A stretch of DNA of 64,000 nucleotides from an uncultured Oscillospiraceae bacterium (GTDB lineage: Bacteria > Bacillota > Clostridia > Oscillospirales > Oscillospiraceae), in NCBI GenBank assembly GCA_947589745.1, contig CANQCS010000005.1, forward strand, positions 34,067-98,066, given 5' to 3'. Position 1 is the first letter of the stretch; each line of letters opens with the position of its first letter. Below, piece after piece: positions 37,709 to 63,930 of this stretch. Under the pieces are notes generated by a model. That model was not told the origin of the DNA. It searched no databases and saw nothing but the letters and a program-made list of their open reading frames with translations. Both the position numbers and the translations under genes were made by a program.

Positions 37709-38659
37709 CTACGCCCGCTTCACGGCGTCCACGGCGGCCAGCACCTTTGCCTTCACCTCCGCCAGGGTGCCCTGGATGGTGGCGCCGGCGGCCATGGCGT
37801 GGCCTCCGCCGCCCAGCAGGCGGCAGGCCTCCGTGGCGTTGACCCGGCCGTTGGCCCCGGTGCGGAGGGACAGCTTCCACACGTCCGGCTTCAGCTCCCG
37901 CAGCACCGCGCCGCAGTCCACGCCCTCCACCATGCCCGCCAGGGCGGACAGGTCCTCGGCGTCGCTCTCCGTGGCCCCCACCCGCTCCATGAGGGAGATG
38001 GGCACGGTCATAAACACCCCGCGGCCCCCGTGGAAAAACTCCATGTTCCCCAGCAGGTCCGCCTCCAGGGCGATGCGCTTCCGACTCTTGGTGCGGAAGT
38101 GGCGCTTGTTGACGGCGAACCAGTCGATGCCTGTCTCCATCAGGGCCGCCGCCACCCGGTGGGTGTTGGGGGTGGTGTTGGCGTAGACGAAGCAGCCGGT
38201 GTCCGTGGACACGGCGGCGTACAGCGGCAGGGCCACTGACTGGGTGATCTCCCCCAGCGCCCGGCAGATCTCGTACACGATCTCCCCGCAGGCCGCCCGG
38301 GAGGCGTCCACGCACTGCTCCGCGCCGAAGCCCTCAAAGGAGGGGTGGTGGTCCACTGCCAGCCCGATCCGGTCAAAGTACGCCTCCGCCGCCGGGAAGA
38401 ACAGGTTCCGGGAGGCGATGTCCACCGACACCACGAACGCCGGTGTGAACCCCTCCGGGGCCCAGTAGGGCGCGGCGTAGCCTTCGTTGGCGGCCGTGAT
38501 CTCCGGATTATAGAGCAGATACGCCGTCTTGCCCAGCTGCCGGAGCGCGGCGCAGAGCCCGGCGGCGCAGCCGATGGTGTCCCCGTCGGGGCGCAGGTGG
38601 GTCAGAATCAAAATGTTGTCCTGCCGCCGCAGCAGGGCGGCGGCTTCCTGGGTGGTCAT
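37709..38659 (-). CDS. nrnA: Bifunctional oligoribonuclease/PAP phosphatase (DHH-DHHA1)
   Basis: This 316-aa protein has the DHH family motifs LTHLRPDGDTIGCAAGL, VVSVDIASRN, GLAVDHHPSFEGFG and STDTGCFVYANT, and the DHHA1 end CRLLGGGGHAMAAGATIQG. NrnA degrades nanoRNAs and 3'-phosphoadenosine 5'-phosphate. It is downstream of rbfA, as in many Firmicutes. Its ribosome binding site (GGAAGG) lies within the distal end of repeat A copy 5, so the repeat forms the whole intercistronic spacer. Confidence 0.95.
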   Translation of the reverse strand: MTTQEAAALLRRQDNILILTHLRPDGDTIGCAAGLCAALRQLGKTAYLLYNPEITAANEGYAAPYWAPEGFTPAFVVSVDIASRNLFFPAAEAYFDRIGLAVDHHPSFEGFGAEQCVDASRAACGEIVYEICRALGEITQSVALPLYAAVSTDTGCFVYANTTPNTHRVAAALMETGIDWFAVNKRHFRTKSRKRIALEADLLGNMEFFHGGRGVFMTVPISLMERVGATESDAEDLSALAGMVEGVDCGAVLRELKPDVWKLSLRTGANGRVNATEACRLLGGGGHAMAAGATIQGTLAEVKAKVLAAVDAVKRA

Positions 38660-38662
38660 AGT

Positions 38663-38783
38663 CTTATACTATCCTTCCATTAGAGGTATACTTTGTTGCC
38701 GTGGGGGAAATGTAGGCATTGCAGCGCTTTGGGAGCGATGTGGAAGTTCTTTTTGATCCTTTTCCTTTCAGGAAAAAGGATCA
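38663..38783 (-). repeat. Repeat family A, copy 5 (rbfA-nrnA spacer)
   Basis: Minus orientation. The palindrome TGATCCTTTTTCCTGAAAGG starts with the TGA of rbfA. The distal end (ACCTCTAATGGAAGGATAGT) supplies the nrnA ribosome binding site. Confidence 0.88.
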
Positions 38784-39170
38784 TTCCTCATCTAAAATAA
38801 TGTGCTCGTTGGCCGGGTTGGCGGGCTTGACTACCGTGGGGTCCCGCAGCATCTCCAGGATGTGGGCCCCCTGGGCGATGGAGTCGTCCGCCACGAATTG
38901 CAGCTCCGGGGTGTACCGCAGCTTCAGCGCGGCCCCCAGCTCCCGGCGGAGATAGCCCGACGCGGAGCGGAGGCCCCGCATCATGTCCTTCTCCTGGCTC
39001 TTGTCCAGGGCGCTGATATACACCTTCGCGTACCGCAGGTCGCTGGTGGTGTCCACGTGGGTGACGGTGAACAGCCCGCCCTGGAGGCGGGGGTCCTTCA
39101 CCGTCCGCAGCAGGGCGCTCAGCTCCCGCTGGATCTCCTCGTTGATGCGTCCAATGCGATTACTTGCCAT
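38781..39170 (-). CDS. rbfA: Ribosome-binding factor A
   Basis: This 129-aa KH-fold protein (RIGRINEEIQRELSALLRTV; KVYISALDKSQEKDMMRGLR; LRYTPELQFVADDSIAQGAH) acts in late 30S maturation and cold adaptation. It has AGGAGG upstream. It belongs downstream of infB, as is usual, but a 514-bp gap with a terminator, repeats and an infB remnant separates the two here. Its stop codon is part of repeat A. Confidence 0.96.
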   Translation of the reverse strand: MASNRIGRINEEIQRELSALLRTVKDPRLQGGLFTVTHVDTTSDLRYAKVYISALDKSQEKDMMRGLRSASGYLRRELGAALKLRYTPELQFVADDSIAQGAHILEMLRDPTVVKPANPANEHIILDEE

Positions 39171-56554: not shown

Positions 56555-56599
56555 GATGAACCGATTCCTGACCCTATTGAGAAAGTTGGACGTTACTTT

Positions 56600-56729
56600 G
56601 ATTTTATACTATTCTCCCATTAGAAGTATATTTCGTTACCGTGTCGAGAATGTAGGTTTTGCAACGCTTTGAGAGCGATGTTAAAGTTCTTTTTGATACT
56701 TTTTCTTTCAAGAAAAAGTATTAGACATG
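56600..56729 (-). repeat. Repeat family A, copy 7 (near full length)
   Basis: Minus orientation. The distal end is TATACTATTCTCCCATTAGA, the middle TTCGTTACCGTG and TTGCAACGCTTTGAGAGCGA, and the gene-proximal palindrome ATACTTTTTCTTGAAAGAAA. The sequence next to the palindrome gives a TAA for the small peptide frame upstream. Confidence 0.9.
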
Positions 56730-56804
56730 GTGAAAGCCCTCCCTATAAGTATTCCCTACAAAGAGGGCAACAAAAAAGGCTCCCATCGTCAGATAGGCGC
56801 CCAC
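56721..56804 (-). CDS. Possible small hydrophobic peptide
   Basis: A 27-codon frame from a GTG (or 21 codons from an ATG at 56786) reads VGAYLTMGAFFVALFVGNTY and ends REGFHHV. It is hydrophobic in its first 18 residues, like type I toxin or holin-like peptides. It lies in the transcript expected from a perfect consensus promoter, behind a structured leader. No clear ribosome binding site is seen, and the stop lies at repeat A. The alternative is a non-coding RNA or a remnant. Confidence 0.3.
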   Translation of the reverse strand: MGAYLTMGAFFVALFVGNTYREGFHHV

Positions 56805-57033: not shown

Positions 57034-60000
57034 TTACTGATCTCCGGCCTCGTTGTCCTTCTTGGAGGAGAAGGCCATACCGATCATGGAGAGAATGGCC
57101 ATCAGCATCCACAGGCCCTTCTTGCTCTTGTCGCCGGTCTGGGGCACATCGTCCATCGGGACGTCCTCGTCGGGGATCTCCGTCAGCGGGGGCTCCTCGT
57201 CCGGGATCTCTTCCAGCGGCGGTTCCTCGTCCGGGATATCCGTCGTCGGGGGCTCCTCATCGGGAATATCCGTATCGGGCGTATCCGTTGTCGGAGGCGT
57301 CACATCGGGAATGTCCGTGTCAGGCGTATCCGTCGTCGGAGGCGTCACGTCGGGGATATCCGTTGTCGGAATGTCCATGTCAGGAATGTCGGTGGTCGGA
57401 GGCGTGATGTCCGGGATATCAGTCTCAGGAGGAGTATCCGGCGGGTTGTCCGGGGGATTGTCCGGCGGATTCTCCGGAGGCGGGTTATCCGGTTCATCAG
57501 GCTCATCCGGGGTATCATAGGTGTTGGTGATGGCCAGCGCGCTGCTCTGTCCGGCTTCTACCGTCACAGCGCCTTGCCCGCTCGCCGACCAACTCCAGCC
57601 GATGATGCTGGCATCCAGTTCCTCCACGGTGTACTCACCGGGGAGCAGGTCCTCAAGGGTCACGGTGCCCGCACCGTTGATGGTCACGGTCTGGCTGTAG
57701 CCGTTCGGGCCGGTCACCAGGAAGGTGTAGGTCCGCACCGCAGCGGCCACGCCGCCGCCCACCACGCGCTTGGTGATGGTCAGGGAGCCGGTCTCGGGGG
57801 TGTAGGTGTTGGTCACGGCGGCCTGGGCGGTAGTGCCATCGTTGGTCACAACCGCGGTGGTGTCGCCGGTGACTTCCAGGGTGTAACCCTCAATGCTGGC
57901 GTCCTGCTCGGTAATGGTGTACTCGCCGGGAGCCAGGTCCTCCAGCGTCGCGGTGCCCGCGCCGGTGACCTCAACCGTGGTGCTGTAGCCGTCCGGCCCG
58001 GTCACGTCGAACACATAGGTCTTGTTGGCCACCTCATCGCCGCCGCCCACCACGTTCTTTGTGATCTGGAGGGAGCCCTTGATCTCGGTGTAGGTGTTGG
58101 TCACGGTGACCTCGGCCTTTTCCCCTGCCTCCACCGTGGCGCTGCCCTCGCTGGTGACGGCCAGGGTGTAGCCCGGGATCTCCGCGTCACGCTCGGTGAC
58201 GGTGTAGTCGCCGGGCTTCAGGTTGTTGAGGAGGGCGCTGCCGCCGCCGCTGACGGTCACGCTCTCGCTGTAGCCATCGGGGCCGGTGACGTCAAAGGTG
58301 TAGGTCTTGCCGTTGGTCTCGCTGCCGCCGCCCACGACCTGCTTGCTGATCTGGAGGGAGCCGAGATTCTTTTCGTAGGTGTTGGTGACGGTGACATTGG
58401 CGGTCTTGTCGGCCTCCACCGTGACGTCGCCCTCGCCGCTGACGGTCCACTTCCAGCCGTCAATGCTGGCGTCGGCCTCGGTGACGGTGTAGGTGCCGGG
58501 ATCCAGGTTCCGCAGGGTCTCGCTCTCACCGTCCTTGAGGGTCACGGTCTTGCTGTAGCCGTCCGGGCCGGTGACGGTGAAGGTGTACTCCTTCTCCGCC
58601 GCCTCGCCGCTGCCGCCCGAGACGGTCTTTGTGATGGTCAGCTTGCCCTTGCTGGGGGTGGGGATGCTCTTGCTGTTGCTGAATTCGGCTTTGGCGGTCT
58701 CACCCTCCTTGATGGTACCGGTCGCATCGGTGGAGGTGGTGGTGTAGCCGTCCTGATTGGCCTCGGTTTCGGCAACAGTGTAGGTGATATCCTTGGGCAG
58801 GCCGGTGGCGGTCTTGCTCTGGCCGTGCTTCAGGGTGAATGCAGCTACGCCATCTTTGAAGGACATACCGCCGTAGGTACCGTTAATAGCGGTATCAGAC
58901 AGCGTCACGGTGAAATGGAATTCTTTGTCGGTATCACCCGCGTTGCCGGTGACGGTCTTGCTGACGGTCAGGGAGGCAGTGGCCGGTTCCGTGCTGGGCG
59001 TACCAACCTCAACAGTACCGTTGGTGCCGATGCCGCCGCCGCTGGAGTGGGATGTGTTGCCGGTGATATGGGTGGAGATGAAGCCGCGGGCTGTAACCAC
59101 GCCATCGTTGTCGGAGGTAAGGTCGTTGTAGAGGGAGATCGCGCCATCCGACAGAATCCCAGTAAGCAGATCGTAGTCGATGCTATTGCCATCACTGTCC
59201 GTCCAGTTGTACGCGCCGCCGCCGACCATGAACGGAGAGAACTTTACTTCGGGGTGAGCAACACCGTCCCAATCGTGGGCAGTGATGTAGACCTCTTCAT
59301 GGGGCTTCGTAAGGTTCCCGGTACCAACGGTGCCATCGTTGTTGCCGTAAATCACCCCGCTCTCGTCGAAGTATACCTTCACCTCGGAGTAGGGGCACCC
59401 GGCCACGCCGCCGCCGTTATCAATGGCATTGTTGCCGGTGATCTCCACACCCATAATCTTCAGCACACCGGAGTAATCCTCGTCACCCTGGACGTAGATA
59501 CCGCCGCCGCCATAGAGGGCAGTGTGACCTCCGGTGGTGAACGACTTTTGCTCAGTAGCGCACTCGTTATCGGTGATATAGCCAGCCGTGACAATGGCGG
59601 TGACGCCCCAGCCGACGAAGATGCCGCCGCCGTTGGCCTTGGCTTCGTTGTTTGTGACATAGCAGTCTACGTCGTCCATGGTGAACTGCTCACCTGATAC
59701 GACTCCAGTCCGCATATACTCAAACTCTTGGCCGACGGAAATGCCGCCGCCGAAGCCAGCCTGGTTGTTCTTGATGGTACCTCCCTTATAAACCATGGAT
59801 CCGTAGCCGCCAACCATGACACCGCCGCCGCAGCCCACGTCAAAATCGTACCAAATTTCGCCGCTGACATTTCTCTGGGCATTCTTAAAGGAAGCGGTGT
59901 TGTTCTGAATGGTGCCGCCGTTCATGGTGAAAGTGCCGAACTCCACCAGGATGCCGCCACCGTTATGGGCCTGACAGTTCTGAATAAAAGCACCATTATT

Positions 60001-62988
60001 CATGGTCACGGCGCCGCCGTTCACATAGACACCGCCGCCGTTATAGATCTTATAAACGTCAGCATCCTCACTGCCTGTTATATACCCACCAAAGCCGTTA
60101 TTGTACGTCCCGTCATAGCGCAGCTTATTGTTTTGGACCGTCGCTCCGTTGTCCAGCGTCAGGCCGCCGTCCTTATTCACCCGGATGACCGCGCTGCGGG
60201 GGCTCAATCCATCTTCGCTGCCGCCATCCAGGGTGATATTCTCCAATTTCAGGGTACCGCTGTCCACAACGAACATATTGTCCTTACAGAAGGCTGTGGC
60301 GGATGTACCATGATCTACAAGGGCCGCGCCCCTGGTAATGGTATAGTTACCGCCAGCCGCAGAGGTCAGGGTGACGCTCGTGGTGACCTGGACAGTATCA
60401 TCGATGGTCAAATTACCCAGTACCTCAATAATGTCGCCGTCTTTGGCCTCGTTCATAGCCGCCTGGAGAGAGGTGTATTCGTTCTCACCAATCCTCGCCA
60501 CCGGGTCGCCTTTCTCTTCCATCTTGTAGGAGTAGGTGACAAACACCTGGGACGTCTTATTGGCGGTAATCGTAACATCTTTCTGGCTATCGACGGTATA
60601 AGTGTAACCATCGATCTTACCGTCAGGAGCCGTCAATGTGTACGATCCAGCGTCAAGCTGGGCAGTCGCGCTGCCAGCACCTGTGACTTCGAGCGTCTTC
60701 GTCGTTTTACCATTCGTAACGGTAAAGGTATAGGTTTTTTCAAACGCCTCAGGGCAATCGCCTTCGATTTTATTTGTGAGGCTGAGAGTACCGATGTTCT
60801 CAGAAGTATAGATATACTTCACTGTGACTGTGGTCGTCTCCCCGGCCTTTACCTCTACCGGCTCCAAGCCCTCGATGGCCAAAGTATAGCCCTTGATGCT
60901 GGAGTACGCGCTCGAATTATCGGTAAACCTATACGTTCCGGGCTTCAAATTCTCAATGGTTTGACTTGGTGCAGCTGGTTTGAACTCATACTGCTTAGAG
61001 TAATCTTCACCTGAAACAGTAATCCGATAGGTTTTAGTGCTGTTAGCGCCTTCAACAGCATAGTTGAGAATCAAAGTACCCATAGTGGGTTTGGGATCCT
61101 CCGGCTCCACGGGCTTATCAGGCCCCTCGGATTCCGATCCATCATCCACCGTGGCGTAGATGTTCCAGGAACCGCTTTCACCCTTGATTCCGTCCTTCCA
61201 TACCTTGCCGGTGCTCTCATCAATCGGATCAGCCTTCCAAATGAGAGTTCCCCCTATTCCATTGACCTCCATACTGGCTGCGGACATGAGCTTGCTGGAG
61301 CTGTTGCAGAAGTAGATGTCGCTGGGAGTATCCTCGCCCTTTGTGTTACCATAGAGTGTACCGGACTCATAAATGGTAGTGCCATAACCAATGCCGCCAG
61401 CGGCGGTTTTATCGTTGCTGGCCGCATAGTTGTTGGTAATGATCGTATCCGTGAGCGTGGCCTTTCCGTAATTATAGATCGCGCCGTACATACCCTCGGA
61501 TTGGTTGCCAGTAAATGTGGACCCGCTGATTGTAACATCAGCGTCATAATCGATGAAAAGCGCGCCAGCGCCGGAATCGCCCACTCCGCAAACAGTCTTG
61601 TTGTTGTCGAACTGGCTACCACTAACAGTGGTCTCTACGCCTCCGGCGATATACAGCGCACCGGCCTTTTGAGCGGTGTTCCGAGAAAACGTACAGTTAT
61701 AAAACTTAGCCGAAACATTGGCGCACACTGTTTTGGAAGTATAGGCGCTCCAAGCATCTTTCTCGGTATTATTGAGGAACTTGCAGTCTGTGAAACTTAC
61801 GGACCCCTCAGTTATATACTTTCCTCCAACATTACTTGTGACACCAGTGATAAAGACAGCGGAATCGCTGAACGTATTGTATTCAAATGTGCAGTTCGTG
61901 ACAGTTGTTTCGTTGGCTCCCACATACAGGGCCGCGCCGCCGTTTGAGTTCCACCGACCGCCGATATAGTTACAGCCACTAATCGACAGGCCGGTCAGCA
62001 CAACACTGGCGTTCGCGCCATTTAACGGGGTGCTGATATAAATGCCCCGGCCCTCGCTTCCGTTGCCCGCAATAGAGCCGTTCATGATCTTTACGCTATT
62101 GTTGCTCGCAAGGGTGACGTTGATGGCAGCCTTGTCCGCACCGACTGTCAGCGTGTGATTGTTCAGGTCAAGGGTAAAACTCTTGCCTTTCGCAGTAACG
62201 GACTCGGTAAGATCGCCATTCAAGGTGATGGTCTGACCGTCCTCGACAGCATCAAGCGCCTGTTGCAGGGTATCGTAGCCCACATCGCCAATAGAAACCG
62301 GCGTACCCTCGTCCTCGCCATTGGGGCTGTCCTCCCGCACGGCGTAGCACCCATCCGTGTGCGTATGCTCCTCCAACCCGCAGGTCAGTTCGGACTTGAA
62401 GCACTCCCCGGTGTGCTGGTGTCCCTCGCTCTCCTCCTGACCGCAGATCAGGCCGGTTTCGGTCTTGTAGCAGTCATCGGTGTGGGTATGGCCGCCCTCG
62501 CCCTCGGAGATCGGGCAGATCAGCTCGCGGCTGGTCTCCACGGCGTAGCACCCGTCGCTGTGTTTGTGACCGGGATCGACCACGACCGGCGCCAGGTCGG
62601 CGCTGGGCATCCCGTTCTCGTCGAGCTGCGCCCGGGTGACGGGGTCTCTCTCTTCCTCGCCGCAGATCAGAGTGCGGGTCTCGGTGACCTGATAGCACTC
62701 ATCGCCGTGGACATGGCCCCCGTTCTCCTCCTGCCCGCAGATCAGGGTCTTGACCTCCCCGTAGCACTCCTCCGTGTGGATGTGTCTGCCGGCGCCCTCC
62801 TCCAATCCGCAGATAATCTCCGGTTCGCCGTAGCAGGTCTCGTCGTGGGTGTGCTCCACTTTGCCGCACACCAGAATGCGTCCGGCGTCCTCATTCGCCG
62901 CCATGGCCGTGACGTTGACCAGGCTCAACGAGAGGTTCAGAGCCAGGACGATGGCCAGCAGCCTGTGGATGTTCTTCCGCAGTTTCAT
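57034..62988 (-). CDS. Giant sortase-anchored surface adhesin
   Basis: This 1984-aa protein has a signal peptide (HRLLAIVLALNLSLSLVNVT). Residues about 38-230 hold seven His/Cys units of the form HxHxxxCY followed by ICG. Two right-handed beta-helix regions follow (TVTNCTFEYNTFSDSAVFIT; NNGAFIQNCQAHNGGGILVE), with pilin/Cna-B-like beta domains, including about five tandem copies with TGPDGYS and PGxYTVTE motifs and one FctA-like domain. Then comes a Pro/Asp/Thr stalk (DIPDEEPP type repeats) and the sorting signal VPQTGDKSKKG with a helix and charged tail. The start at 62988 follows AGGAGG; the track begins 86 codons early, inside the riboswitch leader. Confidence 0.95.
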   Translation of the reverse strand: MKLRKNIHRLLAIVLALNLSLSLVNVTAMAANEDAGRILVCGKVEHTHDETCYGEPEIICGLEEGAGRHIHTEECYGEVKTLICGQEENGGHVHGDECYQVTETRTLICGEEERDPVTRAQLDENGMPSADLAPVVVDPGHKHSDGCYAVETSRELICPISEGEGGHTHTDDCYKTETGLICGQEESEGHQHTGECFKSELTCGLEEHTHTDGCYAVREDSPNGEDEGTPVSIGDVGYDTLQQALDAVEDGQTITLNGDLTESVTAKGKSFTLDLNNHTLTVGADKAAINVTLASNNSVKIMNGSIAGNGSEGRGIYISTPLNGANASVVLTGLSISGCNYIGGRWNSNGGAALYVGANETTVTNCTFEYNTFSDSAVFITGVTSNVGGKYITEGSVSFTDCKFLNNTEKDAWSAYTSKTVCANVSAKFYNCTFSRNTAQKAGALYIAGGVETTVSGSQFDNNKTVCGVGDSGAGALFIDYDADVTISGSTFTGNQSEGMYGAIYNYGKATLTDTIITNNYAASNDKTAAGGIGYGTTIYESGTLYGNTKGEDTPSDIYFCNSSSKLMSAASMEVNGIGGTLIWKADPIDESTGKVWKDGIKGESGSWNIYATVDDGSESEGPDKPVEPEDPKPTMGTLILNYAVEGANSTKTYRITVSGEDYSKQYEFKPAAPSQTIENLKPGTYRFTDNSSAYSSIKGYTLAIEGLEPVEVKAGETTTVTVKYIYTSENIGTLSLTNKIEGDCPEAFEKTYTFTVTNGKTTKTLEVTGAGSATAQLDAGSYTLTAPDGKIDGYTYTVDSQKDVTITANKTSQVFVTYSYKMEEKGDPVARIGENEYTSLQAAMNEAKDGDIIEVLGNLTIDDTVQVTTSVTLTSAAGGNYTITRGAALVDHGTSATAFCKDNMFVVDSGTLKLENITLDGGSEDGLSPRSAVIRVNKDGGLTLDNGATVQNNKLRYDGTYNNGFGGYITGSEDADVYKIYNGGGVYVNGGAVTMNNGAFIQNCQAHNGGGILVEFGTFTMNGGTIQNNTASFKNAQRNVSGEIWYDFDVGCGGGVMVGGYGSMVYKGGTIKNNQAGFGGGISVGQEFEYMRTGVVSGEQFTMDDVDCYVTNNEAKANGGGIFVGWGVTAIVTAGYITDNECATEQKSFTTGGHTALYGGGGIYVQGDEDYSGVLKIMGVEITGNNAIDNGGGVAGCPYSEVKVYFDESGVIYGNNDGTVGTGNLTKPHEEVYITAHDWDGVAHPEVKFSPFMVGGGAYNWTDSDGNSIDYDLLTGILSDGAISLYNDLTSDNDGVVTARGFISTHITGNTSHSSGGGIGTNGTVEVGTPSTEPATASLTVSKTVTGNAGDTDKEFHFTVTLSDTAINGTYGGMSFKDGVAAFTLKHGQSKTATGLPKDITYTVAETEANQDGYTTTSTDATGTIKEGETAKAEFSNSKSIPTPSKGKLTITKTVSGGSGEAAEKEYTFTVTGPDGYSKTVTLKDGESETLRNLDPGTYTVTEADASIDGWKWTVSGEGDVTVEADKTANVTVTNTYEKNLGSLQISKQVVGGGSETNGKTYTFDVTGPDGYSESVTVSGGGSALLNNLKPGDYTVTERDAEIPGYTLAVTSEGSATVEAGEKAEVTVTNTYTEIKGSLQITKNVVGGGDEVANKTYVFDVTGPDGYSTTVEVTGAGTATLEDLAPGEYTITEQDASIEGYTLEVTGDTTAVVTNDGTTAQAAVTNTYTPETGSLTITKRVVGGGVAAAVRTYTFLVTGPNGYSQTVTINGAGTVTLEDLLPGEYTVEELDASIIGWSWSASGQGAVTVEAGQSSALAITNTYDTPDEPDEPDNPPPENPPDNPPDNPPDTPPETDIPDITPPTTDIPDMDIPTTDIPDVTPPTTDTPDTDIPDVTPPTTDTPDTDIPDEEPPTTDIPDEEPPLEEIPDEEPPLTEIPDEDVPMDDVPQTGDKSKKGLWMLMAILSMIGMAFSSKKDNEAGDQ

Positions 62989-63174: not shown

Positions 63175-63209
63175 CAAAAAAGACCACTGATGCCATCCAT
63201 CAGCGGTCG
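63175..63209 (-). terminator. Intrinsic terminator between riboswitch and adhesin gene
   Basis: On the minus strand GACCGCTGATG pairs with CATCAGTGGTC and is followed by TTTTTTGTTG. It lies about 190 bp before the start codon and directly downstream of the aptamer, as an expression platform would. Confidence 0.88.
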
Positions 63210-63239
63210 TCGATCTCCCCGCGGCAGATACGCGCAGGG

Positions 63240-63330
63240 GGAACACGGCAACCGGCTGTCATGGTCATGATGACTTTAGACCCTTGGTTTTGCGTCCCTG
63301 TCTTTCAACAGGTTTGCCCTTGTCAGTTCT
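63240..63330 (-). ncRNA. c-di-GMP-I (GEMM-I) riboswitch aptamer
   Basis: On the minus strand the conserved GEMM-I core is present in order: AGGGCAAACC, a GAAA tetraloop stem (TGTTGAAAGACA), GGGACGCAAAACC, GGTCTAAA, a P3 stem (GTCAT with ATGAC) and the closing CCGGTTGCCG. It lies 15-100 nt downstream of the promoter and is followed by a terminator. It should make adhesin expression depend on cyclic di-GMP. Confidence 0.92.
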
Positions 63331-63346: not shown

Positions 63347-63375
63347 AGTATAATCCATTTCCTGGGATATTGCAA
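63347..63375 (-). promoter_or_regulatory. Promoter of the riboswitch/adhesin transcript
   Basis: TTGCAA, a 17-bp spacer and TATACT on the minus strand, giving a leader of about 350 nt. Confidence 0.85.
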
Positions 63376-63474
63376 GAGGTATTTGGGAAAAATTTACGGC
63401 CGTTCAGTGTTAAAAATTTATGAACGACAGACTGTCGCGACACTTCGTAATACGATTGTCCAATGAAATCGAAC

Positions 63475-63600
63475 TATTCTTATACTATTCTCCCATTAGA
63501 AGCATACTTCGTTACCGTGCTGGAAATGTAGGTATTGCAACGCTTTGGAAGCGATGCTAAAGTTCTTTTTGATACTTTTTCTTTCAAGAAAAAGTATTAC
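63475..63600 (-). repeat. Repeat family A, copy 8 (near full length)
   Basis: Minus orientation, closely similar to copy 7 over its whole length (TATACTATTCTCCCATTAGA to ATACTTTTTCTTGAAAGAAA). No convincing gene ends at its palindrome; a stop TAA is present in the same place as in copy 7. Confidence 0.9.
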
Positions 63601-63660
63601 CTTGCGGAAATCCAAGTTTCACAATTTTGTATAGGAGAGCCAGTCAAGCCGACGAGAAAA

Positions 63661-63694: not shown

Positions 63695-63821
63695 TCCTGC
63701 TATCATTAAATTCACGGCGTCCGGGACAGCGGCAGGAACCGGTTTTGCTGCGCCACTGGATACCGGTCCTTAGCTCCTTGCCCAAGCCCTCCGTTGTTCT
63801 TTCCCGCAGCGCTTATCCCAT

Positions 63822-63930
63822 TCTCCCATTAAAAGTATGTTTCGTTACCGTGTGGGAAATGTAGGTACCTCAACGCTTTGAGAGCGATGGTAAAGTTCTT
63901 TTTGATACTTTTTCTTTCAAGAAATATGGT
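63822..63930 (-). repeat. Repeat family A, copy 9
   Basis: Minus orientation, with ATTCTCCCATTAAAAGTATG, TTCGTTACCGTG and the tail. The palindrome is incomplete on the right (TTTCAAGAAATATGG). The remaining 70 bp to the window edge may be the 3' end of a minus-strand gene, but the frame cannot be decided. Confidence 0.8.

Follow-up and report, generated by a model that had tools for sequence, protein, structure and literature searches.

The leader of a gene for a giant surface protein in an uncultured Oscillospiraceae bacterium is probably a transcriptional c-di-GMP-I riboswitch of the OFF type. We infer the direction of the response from predicted folding and from an alignment of related leaders; c-di-GMP is the likely ligand. 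The window, the whole stretch of 64,000 nucleotides that was analysed, ends where its contig ends. The relevant features are given below in the order of transcription.

63347..63375 (-), predicted promoter, about 20-45 nt 5′ of the aptamer, sigma-70-like consensus scan
63244..63328 (-), c-di-GMP-I (GEMM-I) riboswitch aptamer, full-length match to RF01051
63249..63258 (-), putative antiterminator 5′ strand, from step-wise folding and the seven-leader alignment
63217..63239 (-), predicted spacer hairpin, from longer folds of the window leader
63201..63209 (-), putative antiterminator 3′ strand, from pairing with the 5′ strand across leaders
63182..63208 (-), predicted intrinsic terminator stem-loop, 11 pairs followed by six T
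57034..62988 (-), ORF with ATG at 62988, encoding a predicted secreted surface protein of 1984 aa, sortase type

Aptamer and ligand

The Rfam scan aligned 63328-63244 (-) with the whole RF01051 (c-di-GMP-I) model, positions 1-87, at 81.1 bits (E 2.2e-14) against a cut-off of 35 bits. The class I aptamer named in the initial annotation is thereby confirmed, and the interval proposed there, 63175-63330, fits aptamer plus terminator. The aptamer contains GGCAAA, CGCAAA and GCC, which we take to be the counterparts of G20, A47 and C92 of Vc2, the bases that contact c-di-GMP. Judged by its sequence, the likely ligand is c-di-GMP, and because the aptamer is strong and complete it was counted in favour of a c-di-GMP OFF riboswitch. 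There are four RF01051 matches in the 4.05-Mb assembly, the other three lying on contigs C49, C79 and C29.

The host appears able to make c-di-GMP, judging by intact GGDEF motifs. Profile searches of the genome, whose listed completeness of 98.8% means that a missed gene is possible, recovered one GGDEF protein and no EAL or PilZ domain. The GGDEF protein is a REC-HD-GYP-GGDEF response regulator and holds the only HD-GYP match over the cut-off; a neighbouring gene gave one weak HD_5 match. Its HD-GYP, GGEEF, RxxD I-site and GHxxGD (Asp) motifs are intact, and this single regulator would both make and destroy the messenger. In 60 related genomes, a GGDEF gene was found in 22/22 with the aptamer versus 21/38 without it (Fisher 8e-5, a value that ignores relatedness). 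The gene lies on C49, about 9 kb from the riboswitch of that contig, where hybrid histidine kinases, an Hpt protein and the GGDEF protein are clustered (G000:C49, about 8.6-21.4 kb, L005/L083). One of these kinases has periplasmic-binding-type (SBP_bac_3) sensor domains, and the kinase/Hpt cluster is likely to be the sensory input to the c-di-GMP circuit.

GEMM-I variants that carry A20 recognise cGAMP, and the presence of A20 variants in the relatives G008 and G044 speaks for an aptamer that senses another cyclic dinucleotide, e.g. 3′,3′-cGAMP. However, position 20 (Vc2 numbering) is G in all four aptamers of this genome, and the sole GGDEF protein carries the Asp typically seen in enzymes that make c-di-GMP; with its GGEEF, RxxD I-site and GHxxGD Asp, it does not belong to the cGAMP-making type. 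Base 20 and the GGDEF motif led us to reject a cGAMP riboswitch, which we regard as extremely unlikely.

Leader anatomy and predicted direction

The consensus scan found a single sigma-70-like site 5′ of the aptamer, TTGCAA-17-TATACT, and no further promoter-like site on the same strand from there to the surface-protein gene, including the stretch between terminator and gene; it supports, without proving, the earlier claim that riboswitch and gene are transcribed from one promoter. A nearly identical promoter sequence occupies the same location 5′ of the paralogous C79 leader, and the C49 leader is preceded by TTGACA-17-TATACT.

The terminator, GACCGCTGATG-GATGG-CATCAGTGGTC followed by TTTTTT (63181-63176), begins 36 nt 3′ of the aptamer and has no base in common with it. 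The terminator platform of the initial annotation was recovered here as the 11-pair stem and six T at 63208-63182 (-). In the 190-nt leader 3′ of the terminator, no second RNA element was matched by Rfam.

In the predicted antiterminator the aptamer 3′ strand, CAGC(C)GGUUG, pairs with CGACCGCUG, which overlaps the terminator 5′ arm. Its loop is closed by the spacer hairpin CCCCUGC...GCGGGG, a position that holds different hairpins in other leaders. In step-wise folding, the antiterminator arises spontaneously once its 3′ strand is made, and the aptamer 3′ strand leaves the aptamer. Just before the terminator is complete, the antiterminator (-44.7) is favoured over the ligand-free aptamer (-37.9) by about 7 kcal/mol. 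In the full-length leader both states are near-equal (-56.3 vs -55.1), which is what a switch needs.

Seven leaders from two genera share this platform and were aligned, namely those of the window, C49 and C79 and four from a second genus of the family (G328, G361, G462 and G461). Antiterminator pairing holds in 63/63 cells and in 7/7 leaders, and it falls to 11-73% when the partner is slid by 1-3 columns; the terminator is also conserved in all seven, with 97.4% of cells paired. Covariation was seen at one antiterminator pair (G-C, A-U, G-U), as was a U-A/U-G change. Most pairs are invariant, in part because the conserved aptamer core supplies one of the strands, and a letter-shuffling control is weak with seven sequences (57/500). 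Taken alone, the window duplex does not exceed shuffled G+C-rich sequence in strength (two versions, p 0.14 and 0.86); of the single duplexes, only those of G462 and G461 have p at or below about 0.05 in both versions. As the energy of the window duplex failed against shuffles, the argument rests on conservation across the leaders. Four further leaders from this family (G026, G084, G264 and G219) carry a copy of the antiterminator 3′ strand inside the terminator hairpin, and by their sequence they have the same switching logic as the window leader.

Folding prediction and the seven leaders thus give a terminator together with an antiterminator that is incompatible with the aptamer as well as with the terminator. 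Aptamer and antiterminator both require the aptamer 3′ strand, so binding of c-di-GMP should shift the leader towards the terminator, i.e. the OFF state. At low c-di-GMP, the aptamer 3′ strand would pair with the sequence overlapping the terminator 5′ arm, and with the antiterminator formed RNA polymerase would read into the giant surface-protein gene. At high c-di-GMP, the ligand would keep the 3′ strand within the aptamer and the terminator hairpin would form, so that the terminated transcript would end about 190 nt 5′ of the start codon. The initial annotation held that ON or OFF cannot be read from the sequence; this was too cautious, as the conserved antiterminator predicts OFF.

A precedent for the opposite direction is Bc2 of Bacillus thuringiensis, a class I ON switch upstream of cap, which encodes an LPXTG-anchored collagen-adhesion protein (PMC4933901). 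Like the window leader, Bc2 places a class I aptamer and a terminator 5′ of an LPXTG-type wall protein, so the type of gene leaves the direction unsettled, and attachment usually accompanies high c-di-GMP. The window riboswitch could by this analogy be ON, with high c-di-GMP raising surface attachment. Such a switch needs a terminator that uses aptamer bases or a ligand-freed helix, but neither an overlap nor a third helix was seen, and the conserved alternative pairing employs the aptamer strand to break the terminator. An ON switch working through terminator/aptamer overlap was rejected, as the two do not overlap. While Bc2 is ON, the anatomy of the window leader predicts OFF, and we consider the ON reading unlikely.

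Sibling and related leaders

Behind the C49 aptamer lies the gene for a paralogue of at least 1987 aa, truncated by the contig end, with 47-82% identity to the window protein in the best blocks and 82% over one block of 434 aligned residues. The C79 leader is 98% identical to the window leader, and its contig stops 77 nt later. The C29 aptamer precedes a 1770-aa SLH/MucBP/List_Bact protein; as the terminator is absent and the stretch to the ribosome site is short, this riboswitch is probably translational.

These copies bear on whether the window aptamer matters at all. Several class I switches of C. difficile control no gene (PMC6200980), and in the same species a second promoter has been found 3′ of a class I riboswitch (PMC11477304), so the window aptamer might be a non-functional relic, or a promoter between the terminator and the ORF might bypass it. 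Yet aptamer, antiterminator and terminator are kept together in three copies within one genome, although the DNA around the C49 copy has diverged, and the consensus scan detected nothing promoter-like from which a bypass could start. We therefore judge a relic or bypass very unlikely and retain the OFF riboswitch as the preferred reading.

Many species of the same genus have class I aptamers, single or in 2-3 abutting copies, located 38-50 nt 5′ of giant secreted proteins. Double or triple c-di-GMP-I arrays with no linker were seen in genus relatives (L058, L059, L061, L064, L066, L067, L069, L070, L071 and L080); in these tandem arrays the ends of the Rfam model overlap by 8-12 nt and giant secreted proteins follow. 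The tandem class I arrays of two published accounts are described as separate complete switches (PMC4759541, PMC12452182). Between aptamer and start codon, 17 leaders, both single and tandem, have in common CCGGAY..CUUUGC-RUCCG..GCAAAG-AAAGGAAG, predicted to be a pseudoknot adjoining the ribosome site, with one covarying pair. At the equivalent of Vc2 G20, A replaces G in L058 (G008:C57:24480), L059 (G008:C60:930) and L050 (G044:C1:44570); the variant of G008 stands second in a pair whose first aptamer has G. The G20 to A change is linked to cGAMP recognition.

The surface protein

The 1984-aa ORF (62988-57034, -) lies on the same strand as the riboswitch and has a good ribosome site, AAAGGAGG, 5′ of its ATG. 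Inspection by eye shows a signal peptide and, at the C-terminus, a tail of the VPQTGD/hydrophobic/charged kind, and NCBIfam LPXTG_double scored 42.5 bits, just below the cut-off of 48; sortase genes are present in the genome. The sortase signal that had been assigned to this protein is a putative one, and by its sequence the protein is in all probability a giant surface protein of the sortase type.

From the N-terminus, the protein consists of Cys/His repeats, a glycine/asparagine repeat region that is probably beta-helical, DUF5979/DUF7601/SpaA pilin-like domains, a Pro-rich stalk and the VPQTGD anchor. Pfam recognised DUF5979 in seven stretches, DUF7601 in five and SpaA in four, and NCBIfam a pilus ancillary protein domain. 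Residues 1335-1435 resemble the solved Gram-positive pilin backbone (T-antigen) and ancillary pilin domains. The protein had been called an adhesin; the pilin-like domain content (SpaA/DUF7601) agrees with this and is its sole basis, so that a role in attachment is suggested by domains only.

The Cys/His-rich repeats, CGxEE-xHTHTxxCY, occur at the N-termini of both giant proteins (window 62988-~62000, -; L005 5961-5000, -). They are possibly metal-binding, and no Pfam family matched them over its cut-off. We also observed a repeat of about 120 bp with the palindromic end ACTTTTTCTTTCAAGAAAAAGT at window positions 63473-63605, 63805-63925, 56595-56735 and 38655-38790. The genome has at least 40 copies, most of them 87-93% identical, and by sequence the repeat looks like a MITE or REP-type element. 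Just 3′ of the surface-protein gene is a SAM riboswitch (56903-56816, -; 47.3 bits against a cut-off of 44.4) and, after it, a terminator; a copy of the repeat is nearby, and no obvious SAM-related gene lies behind it.

Comparison with known switches and significance

There are precedents for the aptamer, the type of platform and the type of target alike. The initial annotation drew a parallel with C. difficile, where c-di-GMP switches indeed operate. However, the functional class I switches of that species are reported to be OFF, and sortase-anchored adhesins and type IV pili are controlled there by class II ON switches (PMC6200980, PMC6366702). Among its class I switches are Cd1/Cdi-1-3, with flgB as target, and Cdi-1-2, whose target is a putative calcium-binding adhesin (PMC6200980, PMC6366702). 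The window leader resembles these switches in aptamer class, in transcription termination, in the direction (reported there, predicted here) and in one putative adhesin target; in contrast to the window leader, they act chiefly on flagella and the protease ZmpI. A class I aptamer with predicted OFF action before a giant wall-anchored protein is close to Cdi-1-2. The triple-tandem Bc3-5 of B. thuringiensis, which is ON, is likewise class I with terminators, but there the aptamer 3′ strand builds the terminator (PMC4759541), whereas in the window leader it is predicted to build the antiterminator.

For the organism as a whole, we tentatively propose, with slightly less than an even chance of being right, a circuit whose outputs are RNA only. 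It would comprise the bifunctional regulator and, with PilZ and EAL absent, four class I riboswitches as the only receptors recognised; three or more of these riboswitches, and probably all four, would govern giant surface proteins, and at least three would be shut off by c-di-GMP. If true, a single enzyme and RNA receptors alone would make up a small but complete c-di-GMP circuit, testable from end to end. If the predicted direction holds, different Gram-positive bacteria would have wired the class I aptamer in opposite ways 5′ of similar wall-anchored proteins. In this bacterium, rising c-di-GMP would then lower the giant surface proteins, and the usual rule that c-di-GMP promotes attachment would be reversed.
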